Of a stretch of DNA of 64,000 nucleotides, positions 51,806-64,000 are shown one piece after another. Origin of the DNA: Herbaspirillum seropedicae (lineage in GTDB: Bacteria > Pseudomonadota > Gammaproteobacteria > Burkholderiales > Burkholderiaceae_D); contig NZ_CP011930.1 of the NCBI RefSeq assembly GCF_001040945.1, positions 4,211,021-4,275,020 of the forward strand, given 5' to 3'. The notes under the pieces are model-generated. The model did no database searches. It saw only the letters and a program-made list of their open reading frames with translations, and was not told the origin of the DNA. Position 1 is the stretch's first letter, and every line of letters begins with the position of its first letter. Both the position numbers and the translations under genes were made by a program.

Positions 51806-52003
51806 GGCGGCGGCGGGCGTCGCGGGAGCCGACGCAGGCGGCTGAAAAATAACAGAAACTGACGAAGTCGCACGAAATCGCTGCATAATGCAAAGAAAAA
51901 GTTCCATCCAGCACAAGTGTCGTCCCGTCATCGGGAAATCTCTCCTCGGCACTGTTGTTTTTGAAGAAAAACGATTATATTGAATTTAAATTCTATCTAA
52001 TGA

Positions 52004-52034
52004 ATTTGATTTATTTGTGTAAAACACTGATAAT
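52004..52034 (+). promoter_or_regulatory. shared-motif promoter of the response regulator gene
   Basis: ATTTGATTTATTTGT at 52004-52018 contains TTGATT (52006-52011) as a -35 box; GATAAT (52029-52034) follows at exactly 17 bp. The predicted start would fall at or next to the ATG at 52041, so the mRNA may be almost leaderless. The same 15-mer occurs upstream of the chemoreceptor at 57242. Confidence 0.7.
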
Positions 52035-52040
52035 AGAGCT

Positions 52041-52676
52041 ATGAAAACCGCAAAGACTAGCAGCCCCGAGGTGTGTACCACGCAAGAAGCGGCCCACATC
52101 CTTGGCATTTCGGTGTCCTCGGTTCAGCAACTGGTGGAAGCCGGCATCATCGAAGCCTGGAAGACCAAGGGCGGCCACCGCCGCATCCCGTTGACCGCCG
52201 TGCACGCCTACAAGGCTACGCCTGGCAGCGCTGGCGATGCCGGTGAACACGGCCGCAGTCACGTCGCGCAGCGCGCCGGCAATGGCCGCACCGCCGTGCT
52301 GGTGATCGAGGACAACCAGTTGCAGCGCGAGCTGTACGCCAAGGCACTGGCCTCATGGGGGCTGCCGCTGGACCTGGTCTATTGCGAGAATGGGTACAAG
52401 GCGCTGCTGGAAATCGCGCGCAGCAAGCCCGATGTGGTGCTGGCCGATATCGTCATGGAAGGCATGGATGGCTATGAAGTCGTCAAGACCATCCTCAACG
52501 ATCCGCAGCTGCGCGATGTCAGCATCGCCATCGCCAGCAGCCTGGACAAGGACGAGATGGCGCAGCGCGGCGGTATTCCGGCGGGGGTGGTGTTCTTCCC
52601 CAAGCCGATCAATTTCGATGAACTGCGCGGCTACATGCGTGCCTGCTGTGCCCGCAGGGAGCGCGAAGCCCGATAA
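52041..52676 (+). CDS. response regulator with N-terminal excisionase-like DNA-binding domain
   Basis: 211 residues in an unusual order. An N-terminal MerR/excisionase-type helix-turn-helix comes first (TTQEAAHILGISVSSVQQLVEAGIIEAWKTKGGHRRIP, residues 12-52), then a linker, then a receiver domain (AVLVIEDNQLQRELYAKAL; phospho-acceptor Asp136 in VVLADIVMEGMDGYE; Lys in FFPKPINFDEL). Most response regulators place the receiver first. The sensor kinase starts 26 bp downstream and is its likely partner. DNA targets unknown. Confidence 0.9.
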   Translation: MKTAKTSSPEVCTTQEAAHILGISVSSVQQLVEAGIIEAWKTKGGHRRIPLTAVHAYKATPGSAGDAGEHGRSHVAQRAGNGRTAVLVIEDNQLQRELYAKALASWGLPLDLVYCENGYKALLEIARSKPDVVLADIVMEGMDGYEVVKTILNDPQLRDVSIAIASSLDKDEMAQRGGIPAGVVFFPKPINFDELRGYMRACCARREREAR

Positions 52677-52702
52677 ACCAACGGCGAAGGCCAGAGTGCT
52701 TC

Positions 52703-54373
52703 ATGGATGACCGGAAACAACAATCTTTCCCGCTCCGGTTTGCGCGCATCGATCTGCGCGTAGCCCTCTCGCTGTTTTCGCTGTTGCTGATCTGCGGGCT
52801 GTGGCTGGGGGCGTTCAAGGAGCTGCAGAACAGCCGCAATAACTATCTCGACGATGCGCGCCGCGACGCCCAGTCGCTCTCGCGCCTGTTCCTGGAACAC
52901 GCCTACCGCACCATCGAGGCGGCCGACCAGGCCGCGCTCTACCTGCGCTACCGCTACGCCGAGCGCGGCAATGCCCTGAACCTGGCCACCGAGATCGACA
53001 ACGGCCTGGTGGCGCGCAATGTCTACAACCTCTTCTCCATCGTCGACGCCCAGGGCGACGTGGTGCTCTCCAGCAAGCCCTTCACGCCCGTCAACCTGGC
53101 CGACCGCGAACATGTGCAGGTCCACATGCAAGGCGGCCAGGACCAGCTCTTCATCAGCAAGCCCGTGCTGGGCCGGGTTTCCAAGAAGTGGTCGCTGCAG
53201 ATCACGCGCCGCATCAACCGCCCCGATGGCGGCTTTGGCGGGGTGGTCGTGGTGTCGATGGACCCGCAATACTTTACCCGGCTGTACCACCAGATCGACG
53301 TCGGCCATCACGGCGTCATCACCCTGGTCGGGGCCGACGGCGTGGCGCGCGTGCGCCGCACCGGCGACATGGACGCCATGGGCGAACAGGTCGCTGGTGG
53401 CAAGGTCTATGCGGCCATGCTGGCCCAGGGCAGCGGCACCATCGAAGCCGTCAGCAAGATCGATGGTCGCGAACGCCTGTACGCCTTCCAGAAGCTGCGC
53501 GATTATCCCTTGTTCGCCGCCGTGGGCATTGATCTCAAGGAAAGGCTGGCGCCGTATTACCGCGAGCGCGAACGCACCCTGATGCTGGCCGCCCTGTTGT
53601 CGGTGGCGGTGCTGGTCTTCAATGCGGTGCTGCTCTGGCTGGCCGGTTCGCTGGTGCGCAGCCGGCGCGAGGCGCTGCAGGCCAACCAGGCCAAGTCGCG
53701 CTTCCTGTCCAACATGTCGCATGAATTCCGCACCCCCTTGAACGGCGTGCTCGGCTATTCCGACGCCCTGCGCGAAGAGCTGGGCGAATCGCCCCTGGCG
53801 CAATACGCCGTGGCCATCCACGACAGCGGCAACCGGCTGCTGGACCTGGTCAACGCCATCCTCGAAGTGACCGAACTGGAAGACCGCCGGGTCGCCGTCC
53901 ACCTGGATCCAGCCAACATCCGCGAACTGGTCGGCCAGGCCATCGCCCGCCATTACCCGCAAGCCCAGGCCAAGGGCCTGCCACTGGAGTGCCGCATCGG
54001 CGAGGATGTCCCGCAGATCCTGGTCTGTGACGAGCGCAAGATCCAGCGCGTGCTGGACAACCTCATCAGCAATGCGGTGCGCTATACCGACCATGGCCGC
54101 GTCATGGTCGAGGTCGAACGCAGCGGGCCGCAGCAGTTGACCATGCGCATCAAGGACACCGGCATCGGCATTGCCGCCAGTCAGCAGAATGACATATTCG
54201 AGAAATTCACCCAGGCCGACGACAGTCCGCGGCGCAGCCAGGAGGGCGCAGGGCTGGGATTGACCATCGCCCAGCGTCTGGTCATGCTCATGGGCGGTCA
54301 ACTCGTGCTACAGTCGGAACAGCACCAAGGTTCTACATTTAGCTTCACTCTGCCATTACAAGAGCCGAAGTAG
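52703..54373 (+). CDS. membrane sensor histidine kinase
   Basis: 556 residues: two membrane helices (about 18-40 and 293-315) enclosing a Cache-like periplasmic sensor (NVYNLFSIVDAQGDVVLSS, VVVVSMDPQYFTRLYHQID), then HisKA with His340 (NMSHEFRTPLNGVLGYS) and an HATPase domain (DNLISNAVRYTD, DTGIGIA, EGAGLGLTIA). No receiver is fused. It is the middle of a regulator-kinase-HPt-hybrid kinase run and may phosphorylate the upstream response regulator. Confidence 0.92.
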   Translation: MDDRKQQSFPLRFARIDLRVALSLFSLLLICGLWLGAFKELQNSRNNYLDDARRDAQSLSRLFLEHAYRTIEAADQAALYLRYRYAERGNALNLATEIDNGLVARNVYNLFSIVDAQGDVVLSSKPFTPVNLADREHVQVHMQGGQDQLFISKPVLGRVSKKWSLQITRRINRPDGGFGGVVVVSMDPQYFTRLYHQIDVGHHGVITLVGADGVARVRRTGDMDAMGEQVAGGKVYAAMLAQGSGTIEAVSKIDGRERLYAFQKLRDYPLFAAVGIDLKERLAPYYRERERTLMLAALLSVAVLVFNAVLLWLAGSLVRSRREALQANQAKSRFLSNMSHEFRTPLNGVLGYSDALREELGESPLAQYAVAIHDSGNRLLDLVNAILEVTELEDRRVAVHLDPANIRELVGQAIARHYPQAQAKGLPLECRIGEDVPQILVCDERKIQRVLDNLISNAVRYTDHGRVMVEVERSGPQQLTMRIKDTGIGIAASQQNDIFEKFTQADDSPRRSQEGAGLGLTIAQRLVMLMGGQLVLQSEQHQGSTFSFTLPLQEPK

Positions 54374-54407
54374 CAGTCACCCAAAACTACAAGAGCGGGG
54401 AGCAATA

Positions 54408-54782
54408 GTGCAGCCGGGCCAAGACCCACACCAATATCGCCACATCGATCCCAGCGCGCTGTTGCAAGCCGTTGGGGGAGACGCCCGCACGGTCGCGTCG
54501 CTGGCCCGGACCTTTGCCGACAGCGCCCCCGAGATCTTCGCCCGGCTGGCGCAGGCCGTGGGCGAGGGCAAGGCTGAGGCGGCGCGCCACGAGAGCCATG
54601 CGCTCAAGGGCATGAGCGCCCTGTTCAACGCCCGCGCGCTCACCGAGCAGCTGCAGCAGACTGAAGCGGCCGCGCGCGCCGGCAGCTTGCCGGCGCCGGA
54701 ACAATGGACGCAGCTGCAAGCCTCTTTCGAGCAGGCGCTGGAAGAGATCCGGCGCTACGCGCAGTCGGCAGGCCCCGCCTGA
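54408..54782 (+). CDS. stand-alone HPt phosphotransfer protein
   Basis: 124-residue four-helix HPt domain with the acceptor His64 in [15 protein letters not shown] (H-x-x-K-G). The start is GTG at 54408, with GGGGAG five bases ahead. It lies between two kinases. The downstream hybrid kinase has a receiver but no HPt of its own, so this protein probably passes phosphate from that receiver to the response regulator at 52041. Confidence 0.9.
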
Positions 54783-54813
54783 GCCCACCCTGTGCTGTGC
54801 GTGTGTTGACGAC

Positions 54814-57111
54814 ATGAACGAACCCCTCCCCAACGATCAGCGCAAGACGCCGCGCATGCGCATCTCCGCCCTGACGGTGGGCGCACTGCTGCTGATCCTG
54901 CTGACGGTCACGGTCATCGTTTCCGGCACGCTGCTCTATCGCGCCAGCCTCAATGACTGGCGCAACGACCTCTCCACGCTTTCCACCGTGCTGGCCGAGA
55001 ACACCGCCCAGACCATGTCCTCGGCGCGGCTGGTGATCGACAGCATCCAGGCCGACATTGAACAGGCCAATCCGACCGACCAGCAACAATTGCAGCGGCA
55101 TGTGGGCAGCGTCGAGTTCTCGCAGATCATGCGCGAAAAGATCCGCGGCCTGCCTTTCATCAGCGGCATCGGCGTGGCCAACGCCGAGGGCCGCATCCTG
55201 GCGCTGTCGCGGGTATATCCGGCCCCGCCCATCGACCTCACCGACCGCGACTACTACCTCCACCATCGCAGCTCCGACTCCACCGCCGACTTCGTCGGCG
55301 AGACCGTGCTCTCGCGGGCGGGCGGCGTGCCGACCTTCTACGTCAGCCGCCGCGTCAACGATCGCCAGGGGCGGCTCCTGGCCATCATCGTCATCGGCCT
55401 GCCCTGCGCCTTCTTCGAGACCTTCTTTGACAACGTCACCCGCGACAAGCCCTTCTCCATCGTGCTGGCGCGCAAGGACGGCAAGACCCTGACCTCCACC
55501 GACCTGCTGCCGGAGCAGGGCCAGCGACGCAGCATCACGCCGCTGGCGCAGTTGCATCCCAGCATGCCGGCCGACGATGAGGGCCGCCAGTCGCACGTGT
55601 TCATGCAGTCGCACTGGCTGGGCATCCATCGCCCGGTGCGCAACTGGCCCATGTACCTGGAAATCGGCGTCACCGACGAGGTCTATTTCGGCGAGTGGAT
55701 GGAATCCATGTATCCGCTCATGCTGGTGGCCGCCATCAGCCTGGTCGGACTGATCGGCGGTTTCGTGCTGACCTGGCGCCAGGTGCGGCGGCGCGAAGAG
55801 GACGCCCTGCTGGCCACGCGCCTCAAGGAAGAGGCCGACCACGCCAACGAGGCCAAGTCGCATTTCCTGGCCATGGTCAGCCATGAGATCCGTACCCCCA
55901 TGAACGGCATCCTGGGCCTGTCCGAACTGTTGATGGAATCGGGCCTGAGCAGCAAGCAGCGCGACTATGCCGACAGCATCCACGGCGCTACCGGCGGGCT
56001 GGTGCGCATCATCAACGATATCCTCGACTTCTCCAAGATCGAATCCGGCAAGCTGGACCTGGAAATGGTGGCCTTCCACCCGGTGCGGCTGGTGCAGGAA
56101 CTGTCCGATCTCTACCGCCCTTCGCTGCAGCGCAAGGATGTGCAATTCGACCTGCACCTGGATTGCCCGGAGAACCTGAGCGTAGTGGGTGATCCCGCGC
56201 GGCTCAAACAGGTGCTGGGCAATCTGCTGAGCAACGCCATCAAGTTCACCCAGGCCGGCCATGTCCAGTTGAGCATGTCGGCGCGCCAGGATGAGAGCGG
56301 GCCGAGCCGCTGGCGGCTGTTCTTCGCCATCACCGACACCGGCATCGGCATCTCGCCGGAGGCGCTGCAACAGCTGTTCCGCCCCTTCGCCCAGGCCGAC
56401 AGTTCGATCTCGCGCCGCTTTGGCGGCACCGGACTGGGCCTGGCCATCAGCAAGAACCTGGTCGAACTGATGGGCGGGACCATTGCCTGCCAGAGCATTC
56501 CGGGCGAATCGACCCGCTTCAGTTTCGAGATCCTCTGTCCCGAGGCCAGCACGCCGGCGCCTGAACCGGTGAGCGAGGCGGCTGCACCTGCGCCCGCTAC
56601 CGCGCTGGCGACGACAGCGCCGGCTTTGCCGCCTGCCGCCGAGGCGCCGGGTACGCTCATGCCCCCCGACAACGCTCCCCAGCCGCCATCCAATGTCGAT
56701 GCGTCGGCGACAGTACTCCCCTCGCTGCTGGCGGGAGCGCGCATCCTCATGGCCGAAGACACCGAAATCAACCGGCAGTTGCTGCGCATCCTGCTGGCCC
56801 GCAAGGGCTGCATCCTGCAGGAAGTGGAAAACGGCCTGCAGGCGGTGGAAGCCATCCGGACTGGCCACTATGACCTGGTGCTGATGGACTGCATGATGCC
56901 CATCATGGACGGCTACCAGGCCACCGCCGAGATCCGCGCCCACGAAGCAGCGCGTGGTCTGCCCCGCACTCCCATCATCGCCCTCACCGCCAGCGCCATC
57001 GAGGGCGACCGCCAGCGTTGCCTGGACGCCGGCATGGACGACTACCTGAGCAAGCCCTTCACCCAGGTCGGGCTGATGCAGACTGTGGAAAAATGGCTAC
57101 AAAAGTCGTAA
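54814..57111 (+). CDS. hybrid sensor histidine kinase with receiver
   Basis: 765 residues: membrane helix ([21 protein letters not shown]), large dCache-type periplasmic sensor (about 45-305; [24 protein letters not shown]), second helix, HisKA with His357 ([18 protein letters not shown]), HATPase ([17 protein letters not shown]), a Pro/Ala linker, and a receiver with Asp692 ([15 protein letters not shown]). The sensor type often binds small organic ligands. It needs an external HPt, supplied by the gene just upstream. Confidence 0.94.
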
Positions 57112-57157
57112 AAAAGTAAATTCAGCAAATAAATAATGCAACTGCTTAAATTGTTTT

Positions 57158-57188
57158 ATTTGATTTATTTGTAGTACGTGATTATGAT
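57158..57188 (+). promoter_or_regulatory. shared-motif promoter of the chemoreceptor-cheV operon
   Basis: The 15-mer ATTTGATTTATTTGT (57158-57172) is identical to that at 52004. TTGATT (57160-57165) and TATGAT (57183-57188) are 17 bp apart, one mismatch from a perfect -10. CAAATAAAT about 30 bp upstream is an inverted copy of part of the motif. Confidence 0.75.
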
Positions 57189-57241
57189 GACTCCATCAGG
57201 CATAGAAATGCCTTCAGCAAGACTCAGGGGGAGTCATCATC

Positions 57242-58957
57242 ATGAACTGGTTCTACAATCTCAAGATTGCTCACAAGCTCAACGCCGCCTTCCTGGTGGT
57301 GCTGGTCTTCATCATCGGCCTGGGCGGCTTTTCCAGCCTTGAGCTGGCCGCCGTCAACAAGAGCTCCACCGACATCGCGCGTAACTGGCTGCCCAGTATT
57401 GACGCGCTGTCCAAGATGAGCCTGGCGCTGGCCCGTTCGCGCAGCTTCGACATGCAGCAACTGCTGACCGCCGACAAGCAGGAAGAAAAGGCCTCGCGCG
57501 AACGCGCTGACAAGCAGATGGCCACCCTGCTCAAGGAAGTCGCCCGCTACGGCAAGCTGGTCTCGGAACCGCGCGAAAAAGAGCTGTACCCCGAGATCGA
57601 GCGCAACATCGCCCTCTACAAGGAAGCCCACGAGCGCATGAGCGCCCTGTTCGAGCAGGATCAGAAGCAGGCTGCACACGCCCTGATGAACAGCACCTCG
57701 ACGCCTGTGTACCGCAAGCTGCAGGAGCAGATCGGCGAGCTGAGCGAAGTCAACAGCAAGGGCGCCGCCCTCTCCGACGCCGACGCTGACCATATCTACG
57801 GTCAGGCCAACATGGCGATCCTGGCGCTGGTGACGACCTGCGTGGTGCTGGCCATGGCCCTGTCCTGGTGGATCGCCCGACTGGTCGCCCGTCCGCTGGC
57901 CAATGCCGTGGACATCGCCCGTCAAGTGGCCGCCGGCGACCTCACGGCCGACATCCCCACCGCCCACCGCGACGAGACCGGTCAGCTGCTGGAAGCGCTG
58001 CGGCAGATGAACGGCAACCTGCTCAATATCGTGCGGGAAGTGCGTCAAGGCACCGACACCATCACCACCGCCTCGGCCGAGATCGCCACCGGCAACATGG
58101 ACCTGTCGTCGCGCACCGAACAGCAGGCCGGCGCGCTGGAAGAAACCGCCTCGGCCATGGAAGAGCTGACCTCGACCGTGCGCCAGAACTCCGACAACGC
58201 CCGCCAGGCCAACCAGCTGGCGGTCAACGCCTCCGAGGTGGCCCAGGCTGGCGGCACCGTGGTGGGCAAGGTGGTCGCGACGATGAGCGCCATCAATGAT
58301 TCCTCACGCAAGATCGTGGACATCATCGGCGTCATCGACGGCATCGCCTTCCAGACCAACATCCTGGCCCTGAATGCCGCAGTGGAAGCGGCCCGGGCCG
58401 GCGAACAGGGCCGCGGCTTCGCCGTGGTGGCCTCCGAGGTGCGCACCCTGGCCCAGCGCAGCGCTGCGGCGGCCCACGAGATCAAGGCGCTCATCGACGA
58501 CTCGGTGGCCAAGGTCGATACCGGCAGCAAGCTGGTCGACGAGGCCGGCCAGACCATGAACGAGGTGGTGGCCAGCGTCAAGCGCGTCTCCGACATCGTG
58601 GCCGAGATCACCGCAGCCGGCGCCGAACAGACCCAAGGCATCGAGCAGATCAACAACGCCGTGGTGCAGATGGATGAAAACACCCAGCAGAACGCCGCCC
58701 TGGTGGAACAGGCTGCCGCCGCCGCCAAGGCCCTGCAGGAGCAGGCCGGCCGCCTGAGCGAAACGGTCAGCGTGTTCCGCCTGGACGCGCAGCATGTGCC
58801 GGTGGTGGTCAGCCGCGCCGCTGCGACGGCCCAACCTGAACGCGATATCACACCGGCGCGCCCGGCCCTGGCCCAGTCCCGCAGCAAGGTCATGGCCCGT
58901 CCCGCCCACAGCAACACCAGCGCCAGCGCCGAGCAGGGCGACTGGGAACAATTCTGA
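57242..58957 (+). CDS. methyl-accepting chemotaxis protein with CheR-docking tail
   Basis: 571 residues: helix 1 ([21 protein letters not shown]), a four-helix-bundle sensor of the Tar/4HB type, helix 2 ([21 protein letters not shown]), HAMP, the signalling tip [35 protein letters not shown], then a flexible linker ending in DWEQF. That pentapeptide resembles the NWETF docking site for CheR/CheB of enterobacterial receptors, so this receptor can recruit adaptation enzymes. cheV follows 14 bp downstream. Confidence 0.95.
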
Positions 58958-58971
58958 AGAGAGAGAAAACC

Positions 58972-59934
58972 ATGGACTCCTTCCAAAAAGAAATCGACGA
59001 ACGTACCAACCTGACCTCCACCAACAAGTTCGAACTGCTGCTGTTCCGCCTGGGCACGCCCGACGGTTCCACTGACAAGCCCGGCGAACTGTATGGCATC
59101 AACGTGTTCAAGATCCGCGAGATCGTCCCGATGATGGACATCACCGCCGCCGCTGGCATGCGCTCGCCGATGATGGGGATGGTCAATATCCGCGGCCAGG
59201 TCATGTCGGTGGTGGACCTGCCGGCGGTGGCCGGTTGCAAGGCCGGCCACGGCAACAACATCCTGCTCATCACCGAATTCGCCCGTCACACCCAGGCCTT
59301 CGCGGTGGAGTCGGTGGAAGAGATCGTGCGCCTGGACTGGAGCCAGGTGCTGCCGGCCGATTCGCACTCGCCGGGCAGCCTGGTCACCAGCATCGCCCGC
59401 CTGGATTCGGAAGTCGACGGTGGACGGCTGGTGCAGGTGCTGGATGTGGAACACATCCTCAACCTGGTCTCGCCGGTCAAGGAACAGATGCAGCCCGCCC
59501 CGCCTGGCGCGGCCGAACTGAAGCTCAAGCCGGGCGCGGTCGTGCTGGCCGCGGACGACTCGCGCATGGCGCGCGCCCTGATCGAGCAATGCCTGAAGGA
59601 CCTCAACCTGCCCTTCATCATGGAAACCGATGGCCTGCAGGCCTGGAAGAAGCTGCAACAGCTGTCCCAGGCCGCCGCCCAGGAAGGCAAGCCGCTCACC
59701 GACAAGGTGGCCATGGTGCTGACCGACCTGGAAATGCCGGAGATGGACGGCTTCACGCTGACCCGCAAGATCAAGGCTTCGGATCAATACAAACAACTGC
59801 CGGTGGTGATCCACTCATCGCTGACCGGCTCCGCCAATGAAGACCATGTGCGTTCGGTGGGCGCCAATGGGTATGTGGCCAAGTTTTCCCCGCCGGAACT
59901 GGCAGCAATGCTGCGCCAGGTGCTGCCCCCCTGA
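58972..59934 (+). CDS. cheV: chemotaxis coupling protein CheV
   Basis: 320 residues: an N-terminal CheW-like domain (FELLLFRLG, YGINVFKIREIV, GMVNIRGQVMSVVDLPA) and a C-terminal receiver (VVLAADDSRMARALIEQ; acceptor Asp in MVLTDLEMPEMDGF). It couples receptors to CheA in a phosphorylation-tunable way. In the same transcript as the receptor, it probably serves that receptor in particular. Confidence 0.95.
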   Translation: MDSFQKEIDERTNLTSTNKFELLLFRLGTPDGSTDKPGELYGINVFKIREIVPMMDITAAAGMRSPMMGMVNIRGQVMSVVDLPAVAGCKAGHGNNILLITEFARHTQAFAVESVEEIVRLDWSQVLPADSHSPGSLVTSIARLDSEVDGGRLVQVLDVEHILNLVSPVKEQMQPAPPGAAELKLKPGAVVLAADDSRMARALIEQCLKDLNLPFIMETDGLQAWKKLQQLSQAAAQEGKPLTDKVAMVLTDLEMPEMDGFTLTRKIKASDQYKQLPVVIHSSLTGSANEDHVRSVGANGYVAKFSPPELAAMLRQVLPP

Positions 59935-59960
59935 CAGCCCCTACTGCAGAGCCAGTGACG

Positions 59961-60029
59961 GCGCTTTTTACAAGCGCACGGCCGACCAGCCTGTCGGCCG
60001 CCCCGACGCCGCCAGTTCGCTGGCGGCGT
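59961..60029 (+). terminator. three consecutive hairpins after cheV
   Basis: Within 69 nt: GCGCTT/AAGCGC (59961-59977), CGGCCGAC/GTCGGCCG (59979-60000), and ACGCCGCCAG-TTCG-CTGGCGGCGT (60006-60029) followed by a T-rich stretch (TGTCGTTGTTGTTG). The third looks like the terminator; the others may stabilise the 3' end. Confidence 0.7.
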
Positions 60030-60236
60030 TGTCGTTGTTGTTGTCGGTGTGATGTGGTCTTTGCCGCGCAGGATGAAGGAATCCTGACCGGCTTGCGCTA
60101 TCTCAAACTCCTTCGAATTCAAGCTCTTAGAATGAAAGTGAACGTTCCTTCACCCGGCCCAGGCGCCGGGCCCTCCTCCTGAGCGTCTCCGCCAGCGACC
60201 GGCGTTGCGGTCACATCCTGTTCCGGGAGCCAGACC
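60030..60236 (+). other. spacer upstream of the hemerythrin gene
   Basis: About 200 bp with no supported gene. It should contain the promoter of the hemerythrin-like gene, but no convincing -35/-10 pair was found; GTTCCGGGAG upstream of the ATG is a plausible ribosome site. Confidence 0.4.
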
Positions 60237-60761
60237 ATGTCAGAGGCCGACCTTTCCCCCCGTATTCCCGCCTTGCTGGCGGCCATGGATGCCGAACATC
60301 GTCACGTGCTCGATGGCGTGGCTGCGCTGATGCTGGTGCCGCAGGAGCGCTTCGGCGCAGCCTATGGGGCGCTGGTGGACGAGATTGAAGAAGGATTCCG
60401 GCAGGAAGAGCTGATGATGGACGAGATCGACTATCCCACCCTCAAGGCGCACCGGCGCGACCATGCCGAGCTGCTGGCGCTGCTGCACCGGCTGCGTCCC
60501 TACCTGGAAGAAGGCAATGCGCCGCTGGCGGACATTGTCATGGGGATGATCCCGCACATGCTCATCCGCCACATGTCGGCGATGGATCAGGAACTGGCGC
60601 TGGCGCTGCGCCAGCAGGAAGGACACACAGTTGCGGGCGCTGAAGTGGCTAACGTGGCTGAGGTGGCTGAGGCGGCGGAAGGGGCTCAAGCGTCCAGCGC
60701 TGCCGGGCTGTCAGTCGATGCCGGCTGCGGTCCGCGGATGATTTCCGGTCCGCTGCCATAG
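60237..60761 (+). CDS. bacteriohemerythrin-like protein with altered iron site
   Basis: 174 residues; the first 125 form a hemerythrin four-helix bundle. Expected diiron ligands are seen as His21, Glu57, His72, His76, His112 and Asp117. The position of the conserved His of the HFxxEE motif is Gly53 (EEGFRQEELMM). Oxygen binding may thus be changed, or the site may be mono-iron. The C-terminal tail is Ala/Val/Glu-rich low complexity and shares 76 bp with the end of the convergent EAL gene. It may be a redox or oxygen sensor for the chemotaxis genes nearby. Confidence 0.82.
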   Translation: MSEADLSPRIPALLAAMDAEHRHVLDGVAALMLVPQERFGAAYGALVDEIEEGFRQEELMMDEIDYPTLKAHRRDHAELLALLHRLRPYLEEGNAPLADIVMGMIPHMLIRHMSAMDQELALALRQQEGHTVAGAEVANVAEVAEAAEGAQASSAAGLSVDAGCGPRMISGPLP

Positions 60762-62320
60762 TCGGCCAGCGTGGCGCAATAGAAGGCGACGAACTCCTCG
60801 ACCGGCAAGGGCCGGGAAAACAGCCAGCCCTGGGCGAAGTCAACGCCCCGCTCGGCGAGGTAGGCGGCCTGTTCCAGCGTTTCCACCCCTTCCGCGACGA
60901 TGTAGAGCTTCAGGCTCTTGGCCATGGCGATGATGTGATCGATCACGGCGCTGGTGGCCGCGCCGGTGCCGATGGTGCTGACGAAGGATTTGTCGATCTT
61001 GAGCGCATCCATCGGCAAGCCCTGCAGGTATTGCAGGTTGGAATAGCCGGTGCCGAAGTCGTCCAGCGCCATCGAATGCCCCATTTCGCGGGCGCGCGCC
61101 AGGGTCAGACTGGCTGAGGCGATATCCATGCAGCCGCGCTCGGTGGCTTCCATCCACAGCTGTTCGGGGCGGATGTCGCTGCCGGCCAGGGCCTGGCTGA
61201 CCACCTCGAGGATGCGCCCGGTCTTCATGTCCTGGGCGGCGACATTGATGGCAATGTGCAACGCCCGGTCCTGGCGCAAGGTGTCGCGCATTTCCCTGAC
61301 CACGGTATCGACCACCAGATCGGTCAACGGCAGGATCAGCCCGCTCTCCTCGGCCAGCGCAATGAAGAAGTCAGGCCGCACGATGCTGCCATCGGGCCGC
61401 CGCCAGCGCAGCAGCGCCTCGGCGCCGATGCAGCGGCCGCTGGCCATCTCGATGATGGGCTGGTAATGGACGATGAATTCCTTCTTCTTCACCGCCAGCT
61501 GCAGGTCGGCCAGCGGTGACAGGCGGGCCTGCGAGACCCGCAGCACCAGCATCACCAGGCCAATGCCCAGCAGGATGCCGACCGGCAGGAACCAACGCTG
61601 CTGGCCGGTCATCTCTTCCAGTACATGATCGCCATCGACGATGGCCGCGGCGGTCCAGCCATCGCGGCTGACGGTGGAGATGAAGAAACCGTCCACGTCC
61701 TGCCTGCCCAGTCCGTCCAGCGCATGCTCGGCGACGCCCGCTGCGACCGGGCCTCCATACTGCGCCACCGGGCCGAAACCATTGCGCGCCAGCACCACAT
61801 GCACGCCCTTCTCCAGCACCACGTCCACGAAACGCAGGCGATGCACCAGCGCACTGTGCGCGCCATACTGGATCGACAGCATCGTGGGCCCATCAGCGAC
61901 GAAGGAGCGCTGGTCCAGCGCCACCTCGACACCGTCGGCCGTGGTAAAGACCGGCTCGGCCTGCCGGCGCCGCCGCGCGCCGACGCTGCTGTCCCAGGAG
62001 GTGCACTTGAGCTGGCCATGTTCGTAATAGCCCATCTCCTCGATGCTGCGGGAATTGACGCTGATCAGGCGCATCTGGGCAATGTGCTCGTCCGAACAGG
62101 GCAACAGCAGCAAAGGCGACAAAGACTTCAGCGAGCGCTGGGTCTCGTCGAAACTGTGCGCGGCGCGCGCGATGACGCTCTCGGCATAGCGCGCCAGACG
62201 TTCATGCTCGGCCTGCGCCACGGCCTGGCGCGACAGCCACATCATTGCCGCCACCGGTGCAATGGCCGCCACTGCCGTGGCCACGATGGTCCATGCCACG
62301 ATCCTGTTCTTGTTGCTCAC
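60686..62320 (-). CDS. CSS-motif EAL cyclic-di-GMP phosphodiesterase
   Basis: 544 residues: membrane helix 1, a periplasmic CSS-type redox sensor (Cys75 in LLPCSDEH and Cys106 in LKCTSWD), helix 2 (about 244-261), then an EAL domain. Its catalytic residues look intact: EALLRW (Glu301), NVAAQD, ATERG, DDFGTGYSNL, KIDKSFV and EGVET. In E. coli relatives an oxidised disulfide keeps the enzyme quiet and reduction activates it. Opposes the GGDEF enzyme at 1724 in c-di-GMP turnover. The 3' end overlaps the hemerythrin gene. Confidence 0.93.
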   Translation of the reverse strand: MSNKNRIVAWTIVATAVAAIAPVAAMMWLSRQAVAQAEHERLARYAESVIARAAHSFDETQRSLKSLSPLLLLPCSDEHIAQMRLISVNSRSIEEMGYYEHGQLKCTSWDSSVGARRRRQAEPVFTTADGVEVALDQRSFVADGPTMLSIQYGAHSALVHRLRFVDVVLEKGVHVVLARNGFGPVAQYGGPVAAGVAEHALDGLGRQDVDGFFISTVSRDGWTAAAIVDGDHVLEEMTGQQRWFLPVGILLGIGLVMLVLRVSQARLSPLADLQLAVKKKEFIVHYQPIIEMASGRCIGAEALLRWRRPDGSIVRPDFFIALAEESGLILPLTDLVVDTVVREMRDTLRQDRALHIAINVAAQDMKTGRILEVVSQALAGSDIRPEQLWMEATERGCMDIASASLTLARAREMGHSMALDDFGTGYSNLQYLQGLPMDALKIDKSFVSTIGTGAATSAVIDHIIAMAKSLKLYIVAEGVETLEQAAYLAERGVDFAQGWLFSRPLPVEEFVAFYCATLADYGSGPEIIRGPQPASTDSPAALDA

Positions 62321-62405
62321 CCCGTCCTCCGATGGCTGCCCGCTGGCGACCGGAACGGCGCAGGACGGGCAGGTTCAAGGCGAATGCGTTCGCCGGATAC
62401 TCATC

Positions 62406-62436
62406 ATTAGACCCGCATTAAACAAATAAATCAATT
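62406..62436 (-). promoter_or_regulatory. shared-motif promoter of the EAL gene
   Basis: Read on the minus strand, AATTGATTTATTTGT (14 of 15 bases equal to the copies at 52004 and 57158) supplies TTGATT as the -35 box (62434-62429). TCTAAT (62411-62406) is the -10 box at a 17-bp spacing, about 85 bp ahead of the start codon. Confidence 0.7.
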
Positions 62437-62622
62437 TAAACATTTATCGATCGATCCCCCATGGCCTCGCGAGGACCGGGGGCGCTAGGCGAAACGCCCC
62501 GTTCAGCCGGCCAAGGAAGGCGAAGATCCGCTTCCCAGGCGGATCTTGCGAGATGCCATCCAGGCAAGAACAAGTTGGACTGGCGCAACGAATTAACTAT
62601 TTATATCTATGCGGAATCATTT

Positions 62623-62654
62623 TTTTGGTTTATTTGGTTTTTTTGTGTTTTAAT
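62623..62654 (+). promoter_or_regulatory. weaker copy of the shared promoter motif, PAS kinase gene
   Basis: TTTTGGTTTATTTGG (62623-62637) matches the motif at 12 of 15 positions; TTGGTT and TTTAAT (62649-62654) are 18 bp apart. It lies about 85 bp upstream of the kinase ATG. Confidence 0.45.
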
Positions 62655-62739: not shown

Positions 62740-64000
62740 ATGGGACATTGCGACGTATTCGAGGTCAGTCAGGTCTGCCCTCTGCCCGCAGCCAAGGAAG
62801 AGGCTCCCGACTTCTGCGCCCTGATCAAGGCCAACGCCCGCTACCGCCACATCATCGGCAATACCCCGGCCATCATCTACAGCAGCGTGCCCTCGGGCGA
62901 CTTCCGGCTGACCTTCGTGAGCGAGAACGCCTCGCGGGTGCTGGGCTACGAACCCTGCGAGATGCTCGATGATCCCAATTTCTGGTTCAACCACATCCAT
63001 CCCGACGACACCGCCCAGATCTTCTCCAGCCTGGCCATGCTCTTCGTGGAAGACCAGAAGATCTATGAATACCGCTTCCGCACCAGCAATGGCAGCTACC
63101 TGTGGATGCACGATACGCTGCGCCTGATCCGCGACCCTGACGGCACGCCCCAGGAAGTCATCGGCCTGATGACCGACATCACCGGCCGCAAGGAAATGGA
63201 AGACACCCTGCAACGCCAGGCCGAAGAACAGCGCAAGCTGATCGAACAGCTGAAGATGGCGCAGGCGCAGCTGATGCAATCCGAAAAGCTGGCCTCCATC
63301 GGCCAGCTGGCCGCGGGCGTGGCCCACGAGATCAACAATCCGATCGGCTTTGTCAGCGCCAACCTCAATACCCTGGGCAACTATGTGGCCACGCTGCTGG
63401 AAGGCATCCAGCTGCATCAGTGCCTGCAGGGCGGCGCGCTGCCTGCGGCCATGGCCCAGGAACAGTTGCGCAGTTTCGAAGCGCGCGCCGACCTGGCCTT
63501 CCTCAGCGAAGACGTGACCGAGCTGCTGGCCGAATCCAATGAAGGATTGCAACGGGTGCGCAACATCGTGCAATCGCTCAAGGACTTCTCGCGCATCGGC
63601 GAGAGCAACTGGCAGATGACCGACCTGCATCGCGGCCTGGACAGCACTCTCAACATCGCCAACAACGAGCTGAAGTACAAGGTCAGCATCGTCAAGCAAT
63701 ATGGTGAACTGCCGCTGGTCAAGTGCCTGGCCTCGGAACTGAACCAGGTCTTCATGAACCTGCTGGTCAACGCTGCCCAGGCCATCAGCGAACGCGGCAC
63801 CGTCACCATCTGCACCGCGCGCGCAGGGGACAAGGTCAGCGTGAGCATCAGCGACACCGGCCACGGCATCGCACCCGAAAACCTCAATCGCATCTTCGAA
63901 CCCTTCTTCACCACCAAGCCCGTGGGCAGCGGGACCGGCCTGGGACTGTCGCTGTCCTATGGCATCGTCAAGAAGCATGGTGGTGACATCCGGGTCAGCA
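62740..64000 (+). CDS. PAS-domain sensor histidine kinase (cut by window end)
   Basis: First 420 residues of a soluble kinase. A PAS domain with PAC segment covers about 35-150 (VSENASRVLGYEPCEMLDDPNFW, IGLMTDITGRKEME). A coiled coil follows, then a HisKA-like phosphoacceptor with His196 in GQLAAGVAHEINNPIGFV (NtrB/ZraS-like HExxNP form), and an HATPase (NLLVNAAQA, DTGHGIAPENLNRIFEPFFTTKPVGSGTGLGLSLS). No membrane helix. GGGGAG six bases ahead supports ATG 62740. The C-terminus and any fused domain are outside the window. Confidence 0.93.
   Translation, partial: MGHCDVFEVSQVCPLPAAKEEAPDFCALIKANARYRHIIGNTPAIIYSSVPSGDFRLTFVSENASRVLGYEPCEMLDDPNFWFNHIHPDDTAQIFSSLAMLFVEDQKIYEYRFRTSNGSYLWMHDTLRLIRDPDGTPQEVIGLMTDITGRKEMEDTLQRQAEEQRKLIEQLKMAQAQLMQSEKLASIGQLAAGVAHEINNPIGFVSANLNTLGNYVATLLEGIQLHQCLQGGALPAAMAQEQLRSFEARADLAFLSEDVTELLAESNEGLQRVRNIVQSLKDFSRIGESNWQMTDLHRGLDSTLNIANNELKYKVSIVKQYGELPLVKCLASELNQVFMNLLVNAAQAISERGTVTICTARAGDKVSVSISDTGHGIAPENLNRIFEPFFTTKPVGSGTGLGLSLSYGIVKKHGGDIRVS

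Follow-up and report, generated by a model that had tools for sequence, protein, structure and literature searches.

Tandem 9-bp repeats at response-regulator and chemosensory promoters of Herbaspirillum seropedicae: a candidate operator

In a 64,000-nt stretch of Herbaspirillum seropedicae DNA (NZ_CP011930.1, positions 4,211,021-4,275,020 of the forward strand; assembly GCF_001040945.1), hereafter the window, head-to-tail arrays of 9-bp direct repeats overlap the -35 boxes of four promoters. We call these arrays P1, P2, P3 and P4; they stand before the gene for a response regulator (RR, 52041..52676), a chemoreceptor-cheV unit, a CSS-motif EAL gene and a PAS histidine kinase gene, respectively. 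Our preferred interpretation, to which we assign a probability of about 0.77, is that RR is an autoregulated two-component regulator which recognises the repeats in the manner of BldC and controls a chemosensory and cyclic di-GMP (c-di-GMP) sub-regulon. The evidence throughout is sequence comparison and predicted structure models. The genome comprises 5,509,723 bases on a single contig, and its closest named relatives are Herbaspirillum species.

Direct-repeat arrays at four promoters

The arrays and their promoters are listed here, together with a second array upstream of P1; the three-copy scores come from a matrix trained on loci of other genera, described below.

P1 array, 52001..52028, plus strand: before RR; units TGAATTTG-A-TTTATTTG; overlaps the -35 box TTGATT (52006-52011), which is followed after 17 bp by GATAAT (52029-52034); three-copy score 30.2, third in the window
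Second array upstream of P1, 51970..51987, minus strand: two copies in the opposite orientation; two-copy score 23.9; an exact match to the degenerate two-unit pattern
P2 array, 57146..57172, plus strand: before chemoreceptor-cheV; three units TTAAATTG-T-TTTATTTG-A-TTTATTTG, with 0 and 2 mismatches; TTGATT (57160-57165), 17 bp, TATGAT (57183-57188); three-copy score 37.3
P3 array, 62414..62447, minus strand: before the EAL gene; TTGATT (62434-62429), 17 bp, TCTAAT (62411-62406); three-copy score 37.6, the highest in the window
P4 array, 62620..62647, plus strand: before the PAS kinase; three T-rich units TTTTTTTG-G-TTTATTTG-G-TTTTTTTG; TTGGTT (62625-62630), 18 bp, TTTAAT (62649-62654); three-copy score 23.6 (fourth), two-copy score 17.8 (eighth)

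An earlier note on this DNA had described a 15-mer, ATTTGATTTATTTGT, as a single motif extending from the -35 box into the spacer. We re-found it at all four sites, exact at 52004-52018 and 57158-57172, with 14/15 identity on the minus strand at 62436-62422 and 12/15 at 62623-62637, and a -35/-10 pair could be read at each. With up to three mismatches the window holds six matches, compared with a mean of 0.13 and a maximum of 2 in 100 dinucleotide shuffles of the same sequence. With at most one mismatch there are three matches in all 5,509,723 bases, every one inside the window (the reversed control pattern gives 1), and the motif is thus not equally common at random in this genome. Two of the six window matches, at 57149 and 62632, overlap the listed sites at a 9-bp offset because the underlying element is a tandem repeat. 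The 15-mer is a slice of an array in which 9-bp direct repeats (NTTTATTTG, two to three copies) follow one another head to tail, and which begins upstream of it; on the strength of the offset matches and a repeat-pattern search, we rejected the single extended -35 motif in favour of a tandem array overlapping the -35 box. The note's broader argument, that the shared element exceeds the needs of sigma-70 and is the signature of a regulator, is supported.

The pattern TTTATTTG-N-TTTATTTG, with up to three mismatches, matches eight times in the window against an expectation of 0.02. Seven of the matches belong to P1-P4, and the eighth (57117-57133, minus strand) lies 12 bases upstream of P2. Genome-wide, ten matches are found with up to two mismatches, six of them within this 10.6-kb stretch.

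Recurrence of the arrays in relatives

Independent evidence comes from other genera. At a cut-off of E <= 1e-40, an RR homolog is present in 108 of 392 genomes of the family Oxalobacteraceae and in 14 of its 44 genera, the own genus counted. Outside the genus there are 40 such loci, 39 of them usable and reduced to 33 representatives, and in the 140 bp upstream of each RR gene we counted the recurrence of 6-mers at lags of 4 to 21. Lag 9 was by far the highest, with 158 recurrences in the representatives against 32.7 +/- 8.1 in dinucleotide shuffles (z 15.5); lag 18, which is twice 9, was also raised (z 3.9). At least two lag-9 matches occur in 29 of the 33 representatives, 35 of the 39 loci and 11 of the 12 genera. 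A control stretch 200-340 bp upstream of RR gave counts of 63 at lag 9, 63 at lag 5 and 77 at lag 18, these being raw counts without shuffles. The genes that neighbour RR differ among these loci while the lag-9 repeat stays upstream of RR in most of them, a behaviour typical of autoregulation.

A three-copy matrix fitted to these distant loci only has the unit A-W-C-R-A-W-T-T-N, or RAWT-TNAW-C when rotated. On the window, which played no part in its training, it ranked P3, P2, P1 and P4 as the top four, followed by the second array in P1 (17.7) and by matches beside P4 (16.2) and beside P2 (15.9). P2, P3 and P1 again lead when two copies are scored. No three-copy score exceeded 22 in 5.5 Mb of sequence simulated on the window; in 0.8 Mb simulated on intergenic DNA two exceeded 22 and none 23.5, the model for the latter being 4,285 bases of the window with 60% GC, less AT-rich than the P2 region. 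A degenerate two-unit pattern matched exactly 95 times in 12 genomes outside the genus, compared with 28 for its control, and among the 24 loci whose neighbours were listed only three (L326, L330 and L349) lie by signalling genes. Outside Herbaspirillum, the array evidence is thus limited to RR's own promoter, and a wider regulon is not established there.

These results bear on one alternative, namely that the sites are low-complexity, AT-rich spacer DNA, or DNA bound by a nucleoid protein of the H-NS type, with no specific reader. The sites are indeed AT-rich in a window of 64.7% GC, and the genome contains other AT-rich families of 9-bp period beside unrelated genes. Against this, lag 9 exceeds the other lags from 4 to 21 as well as shuffles of equal composition, and position, sequence and distance to the -10 box are kept in close species; we consider such an explanation very improbable. 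One of the other families, of the form ~AAATNRTTTATATCRTT, occurs ~17-20 times in the own genome (G000) by eye in the one-mismatch list (for example at 1157289, 2741825, 3726916, 4504883 and 5414519), and at the seven loci checked its neighbours did not look chemosensory. Further 9-bp tandems, of the TTTATATG and TTCATTTG types, occur in several Herbaspirillum genomes (L159 at ~2002-2036; L119 and L153-L155 at the array). Their neighbours gave no match to our chemotaxis and kinase queries, and in L153 and L154 the TTCATTTG tandem extends over the start of a gene.

Within the genus, 13 of 34 genomes carry an RR ortholog, ten at 88-100% identity (the own genome included) and three at 64-65%. At P1, TTGATT-17-GATAAT is kept in all ten close loci, with a column conservation of 0.95 in the spacer. 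At P2 the array and TATGAT are likewise kept in 10/10 while the spacer drifts, mean column conservation being 0.95 for the array, 0.64 for the spacer and 1.00 for the -10 box. Sequence corresponding to P3 is available in eight of the ten, and all eight have a matrix match above 20; the TCTAAT box stands 17 bp on in six of them, L082 among the six. In the remaining two the P3 array is kept (L076, 8842-8868; L077, 8876-8902, counted from the RR start), TCTAAT is gone and no EAL gene lies in the stretch examined. Four relatives have the PAS kinase within the stretch, and there the array of the P4 region lies ~0.6-1.8 kb from the kinase start, compared with ~0.1 kb here. In more distant relatives (L085, L087) both the strand and the distance of the arrays vary.

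Perfect two-unit arrays are found in 11 of the 13 genomes with RR and in none of the 21 without it. With up to one mismatch the figures are 13/13 and 3/21, and a looser pattern gives 96 matches in the 13 genomes and 41 in the 21.

An alternative sigma factor with an extended promoter, which the earlier note had also entertained, or a housekeeping promoter strengthened by an upstream element, in either case without a dedicated binder, would account for TTGATT and a -10 box spaced a constant 17 bp apart at P1-P3 in the close species. The nine-base periodicity, the variable copy number, the occurrence of both orientations in distant relatives and the sigma-70-like appearance of the -10 boxes all speak against this, as does the persistence of the P3 array where its -10 box and EAL gene are absent. 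An alternative-factor promoter would be expected to show a fixed orientation and a -10 type of its own, and we found neither; there is little chance, in our judgement, that explanations of this kind are correct. We also compared the sites by eye with the FliA consensus and rejected a FliA promoter: CCGATAA-like letters occur at P1 in relatives without a fitting -35, and P2 and P3 lack them.

Candidate regulator, targets and mechanism

The genes around the arrays, with domains assigned by Pfam, are as follows.

52041..52676, plus strand: RR, 211 amino acids; N-terminal HTH_17 (49.9 bits) and C-terminal Response_reg (60.4 bits)
52703..54373, plus strand: dCache histidine kinase, behind RR in the same direction
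54408..54782, plus strand: Hpt phosphotransfer protein
54814..57111, plus strand: dCache hybrid histidine kinase-receiver
57242..58957, plus strand: 4HB chemoreceptor (methyl-accepting chemotaxis protein, MCP)
58972..59934, plus strand: CheV (CheW-receiver)
60686..62320, minus strand: CSS-motif EAL gene, c-di-GMP phosphodiesterase type
62740..64000, plus strand, running off the window: PAS histidine kinase (PAS_3, HATPase_c, HisKA)

The 3' end of the EAL gene overlaps the 3' end of a convergent hemerythrin-domain gene (60237-60761).

The earlier note had proposed RR as one candidate binder, and from the sequence comparisons it emerges as the best candidate. The dCache kinase, Hpt protein and hybrid kinase directly behind it are candidate partners. 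The note had tied four units together; this holds for RR, chemoreceptor-cheV and EAL, and less well for the PAS kinase (three-copy score 23.6, against 30-38 for the others), which makes P4 the weakest of the four candidate sites.

The set also appears wider than four units, since other parts of the genome have arrays before chemoreceptor and hybrid-kinase genes as well. Here we relied on exact matches to the degenerate pattern and nearby one-mismatch matches, two mismatches being too permissive (631 matches against 235 in the control). In the own genome there are 11 exact matches in eight places. Three places are P2, P3 and the second array of P1; one, with an array score of 41.5, precedes a hybrid kinase-Hpt gene that has receiver and HDOD genes behind it; two lie by MCP genes (37.2 and 36.8); and two, at 3258162 and 5022854, adjoin no such signalling genes. 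The hybrid-kinase arrays recur in G011 and G033. Across the other genomes with RR, TTTATTTG-N-TTTATTTG with up to one mismatch occurs at 13 places away from the RR locus, eight of them by signalling genes (MCP 4, GGDEF 2, HD-GYP 1, at 357 bp, and multi-PAS 1). The gene next to the array in G004, G023 and G026, for which we had guessed a kinase, is by Pfam a dCache-GGDEF cyclase (the G020 copy, L158, lay outside the scan). In G021 the stretch at the RR locus has no cheV, and a cheV elsewhere has arrays ~250 bp upstream. Because the own genome encodes ~70 MCP signalling domains (73 matches, 72 above the cut-off), any sub-regulon would be small.

Another BldC-like regulator might read the arrays instead, the RR gene being merely one of its targets. 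HTH_17-GAF proteins, which have a BldC-like domain, adjoin chemoreceptor genes with arrays in the own genome (1939356-1940108) and in G014 (L202, 636-1370). In G014, which has no RR, three arrays lie between the HTH-GAF gene and a divergent chemoreceptor-like gene, and arrays in genomes without RR would fit a second reader. We nevertheless think this unlikely, given that lag-9 repeats precede RR in most distant loci and genera while its neighbours differ, that perfect arrays within the genus track the presence of RR, and that weaker arrays (20.4 and 19.5) accompany the HTH-GAF gene at 1939356, compared with 27.7 beside the MCP gene at 1935963.

Several observations tell against RR as the reader of the arrays or against the arrays as operators. 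The case for binding and for any effect on expression is drawn from sequence. Among the distant loci, four of 39 have fewer than two lag-9 matches, both loci from genus g28 among them, and lags 15 and 20 are raised too (z 5.4 and 4.2). At P2, the first 20 bp of the alignment on its upstream side reach a conservation of 0.92, near that of the array. Three Herbaspirillum genomes without RR contain a one-mismatch match, in one case (G018) beside an MCP gene, and the co-occurrence of arrays with RR is partly co-inheritance because the perfect match in close species is the P2 site itself. The degenerate two-unit pattern has no match at P4, even with one mismatch. The HTH-GAF relatives also adjoin arrays and may share sites with RR. 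Five of the 13 off-locus places lie by no identified signalling gene; their neighbours are a porin, an rpiR-type regulator and a sucA-like gene (by eye), with two places having no identified gene. Moreover, the excess over the reversed pattern fades as mismatches are admitted: with up to two, the repeat pattern has 10 matches to the control's 9 in the own genome and 126 to 63 in the 13 genomes with RR. For comparison, one mismatch gives 35 against 12 in the 34 genus genomes, and up to three give 50 against 35 in the own genome. As a control the reversed pattern is poor, since a shift of one base lets a tandem array match it; three of those nine matches are P2 and P4 read in this shifted register. 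We therefore put weight on the shuffles, the other lags and the matrix trained on distant loci. The best matches and the way they cluster are exceptional; the total count is not.

Based on these observations, we propose that the array is an operator in which AT-rich 9-bp direct repeats cover the -35 box of a sigma-70-like promoter in fixed phase with the -10 box. RR would read it through a BldC/excisionase-like winged helix, one protomer per repeat, and its receiver, through Asp136, would make binding or oligomerisation depend on a signal passed along a dCache kinase-Hpt-hybrid kinase relay. Its targets would be its own operon, where the array preceding its own gene points to autoregulation, the chemoreceptor-cheV unit and the EAL gene, with the PAS kinase as a probable further target, and a small number of chemoreceptor and c-di-GMP genes at other loci. 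With a transcription start 7 bases past the -10 box, the P2 array would span ~-24 to -49, a position suited to a class II activator or to a repressor. Activation is slightly favoured, since the array stands in for a poor -35 box and keeps a constant distance to a conserved -10.

To our knowledge, how cells choose which chemoreceptors to make is poorly understood. The arrangement described here suggests that one switch may adjust which chemical sensors the cell makes, and a named candidate regulator with a readable candidate operator offers a sub-regulon that links chemotaxis with c-di-GMP and can be tested. More tentatively, and with the odds somewhat against it, a family of BldC-like proteins with receiver or GAF domains may be wired to chemoreceptor and c-di-GMP genes in Oxalobacteraceae, phosphorylated RR forming a short head-to-tail filament and the number of repeats tuning chemoreceptor promoters. 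The RR architecture, usually annotated as 'response regulator' or 'excisionase family DNA-binding protein', would be tied to a concrete mode of DNA reading known structurally from BldC, that of 9-bp direct repeats, and the lag-9 test provides a simple way to seek the operators of RR's many relatives.

Comparison with known systems

RR has the features of a two-component response regulator: its receiver is complete, and the acidic pair (E90, D91), the phospho-acceptor (D136) and the lysine (K188) are invariant in 57 sequences. As a fold search with the full-length protein gave receiver matches only, the helix-turn-helix (HTH) domain was modelled alone (mean predicted local distance difference test score, 84.5). 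In Foldseek, complexes of Streptomyces BldC with DNA (PDB 6amk, 6ama) came first for this model (E 1.0e-3), making a MerR-like winged helix the nearest predicted fold, while VIA-align scores for a phage Xis (8.9) and BldC (8.7 and 8.1) are ties. By sequence search the domain finds BldC at E 0.34-0.5, and a cobalamin-binding protein (8jbs) is the better match (E 0.003). Residue numbering aligns one to one with BldC (6amk 10-60), and both proteins contain GGHRR.

BldC places one protomer on each 9 bp of direct repeat, head to tail, with the consensus AATTXXXX(C), and its sites vary in the number of repeats and in orientation to the gene, according to PMC5859096. The arrays described here resemble such sites as 9-bp direct repeats of varying number; RAWT-TNAW-C fits the BldC consensus loosely, as one AT-rich word fits another. 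Also to be set against our reading, a sequence alignment shows the BldC contact and interface residues Lys26, Arg30, Lys36 and Leu43 (residue 43 is Met in the crystal chain) replaced in RR by Ser, Gln, Ile and Lys, respectively. The BldC interface of Phe21, Trp31 and Leu43 is not kept: Leu21 and Leu31 of RR are hydrophobic, whereas position 43 is Lys and, among 26 sequences, K, Q, R, G or P. BldC is a stand-alone protein of 68 residues, whereas RR carries the domain joined to a receiver. By analogy RR would work like BldC, yet it is not filed in the BldC family, scoring 20.2 bits against the NCBIfam model NF033787, for which the cut-off is 77.

Other relatives by fold differ more clearly. CarH, another MerR-like winged helix, has a repeat length different from that of the 9-bp arrays. 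It is also a B12-binding tetramer without a receiver (PDB 5c8d, 5c8e). Excisionases such as Pukovnik Xis (4j2n) and RdfS (8dgl) have similar domains, but no recombinase was found among the eight RR-neighbour genes scanned. Classical MerR activators act at spacers of 19-20 bp and on palindromes, in contrast to the 17 bp of P1-P3 and the direct repeats seen here. For the Colwellia 'DNA-binding response regulator, merR family' (PDB 3cnb), the receiver alone has been solved.

The literature we searched, most subscription papers being outside its reach, contains no report joining the RR architecture, 9-bp repeats and chemoreceptor control, and the locus tags in the accessible part of PMC4440368 could not be mapped to the genes described here. 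As far as that literature shows, RR would, if our reading is true, be the first two-component regulator to read tandem repeats in the BldC manner. Two-component regulators that bind direct repeats are themselves familiar, PhoP, PmrA and AgrA being the examples named in PMC5859096. Like them, RR combines a complete receiver with a candidate operator of direct repeats; unlike them, it has its DNA-binding domain first, and this domain is predicted to be of the BldC/excisionase type rather than the usual HTH or LytTR output.

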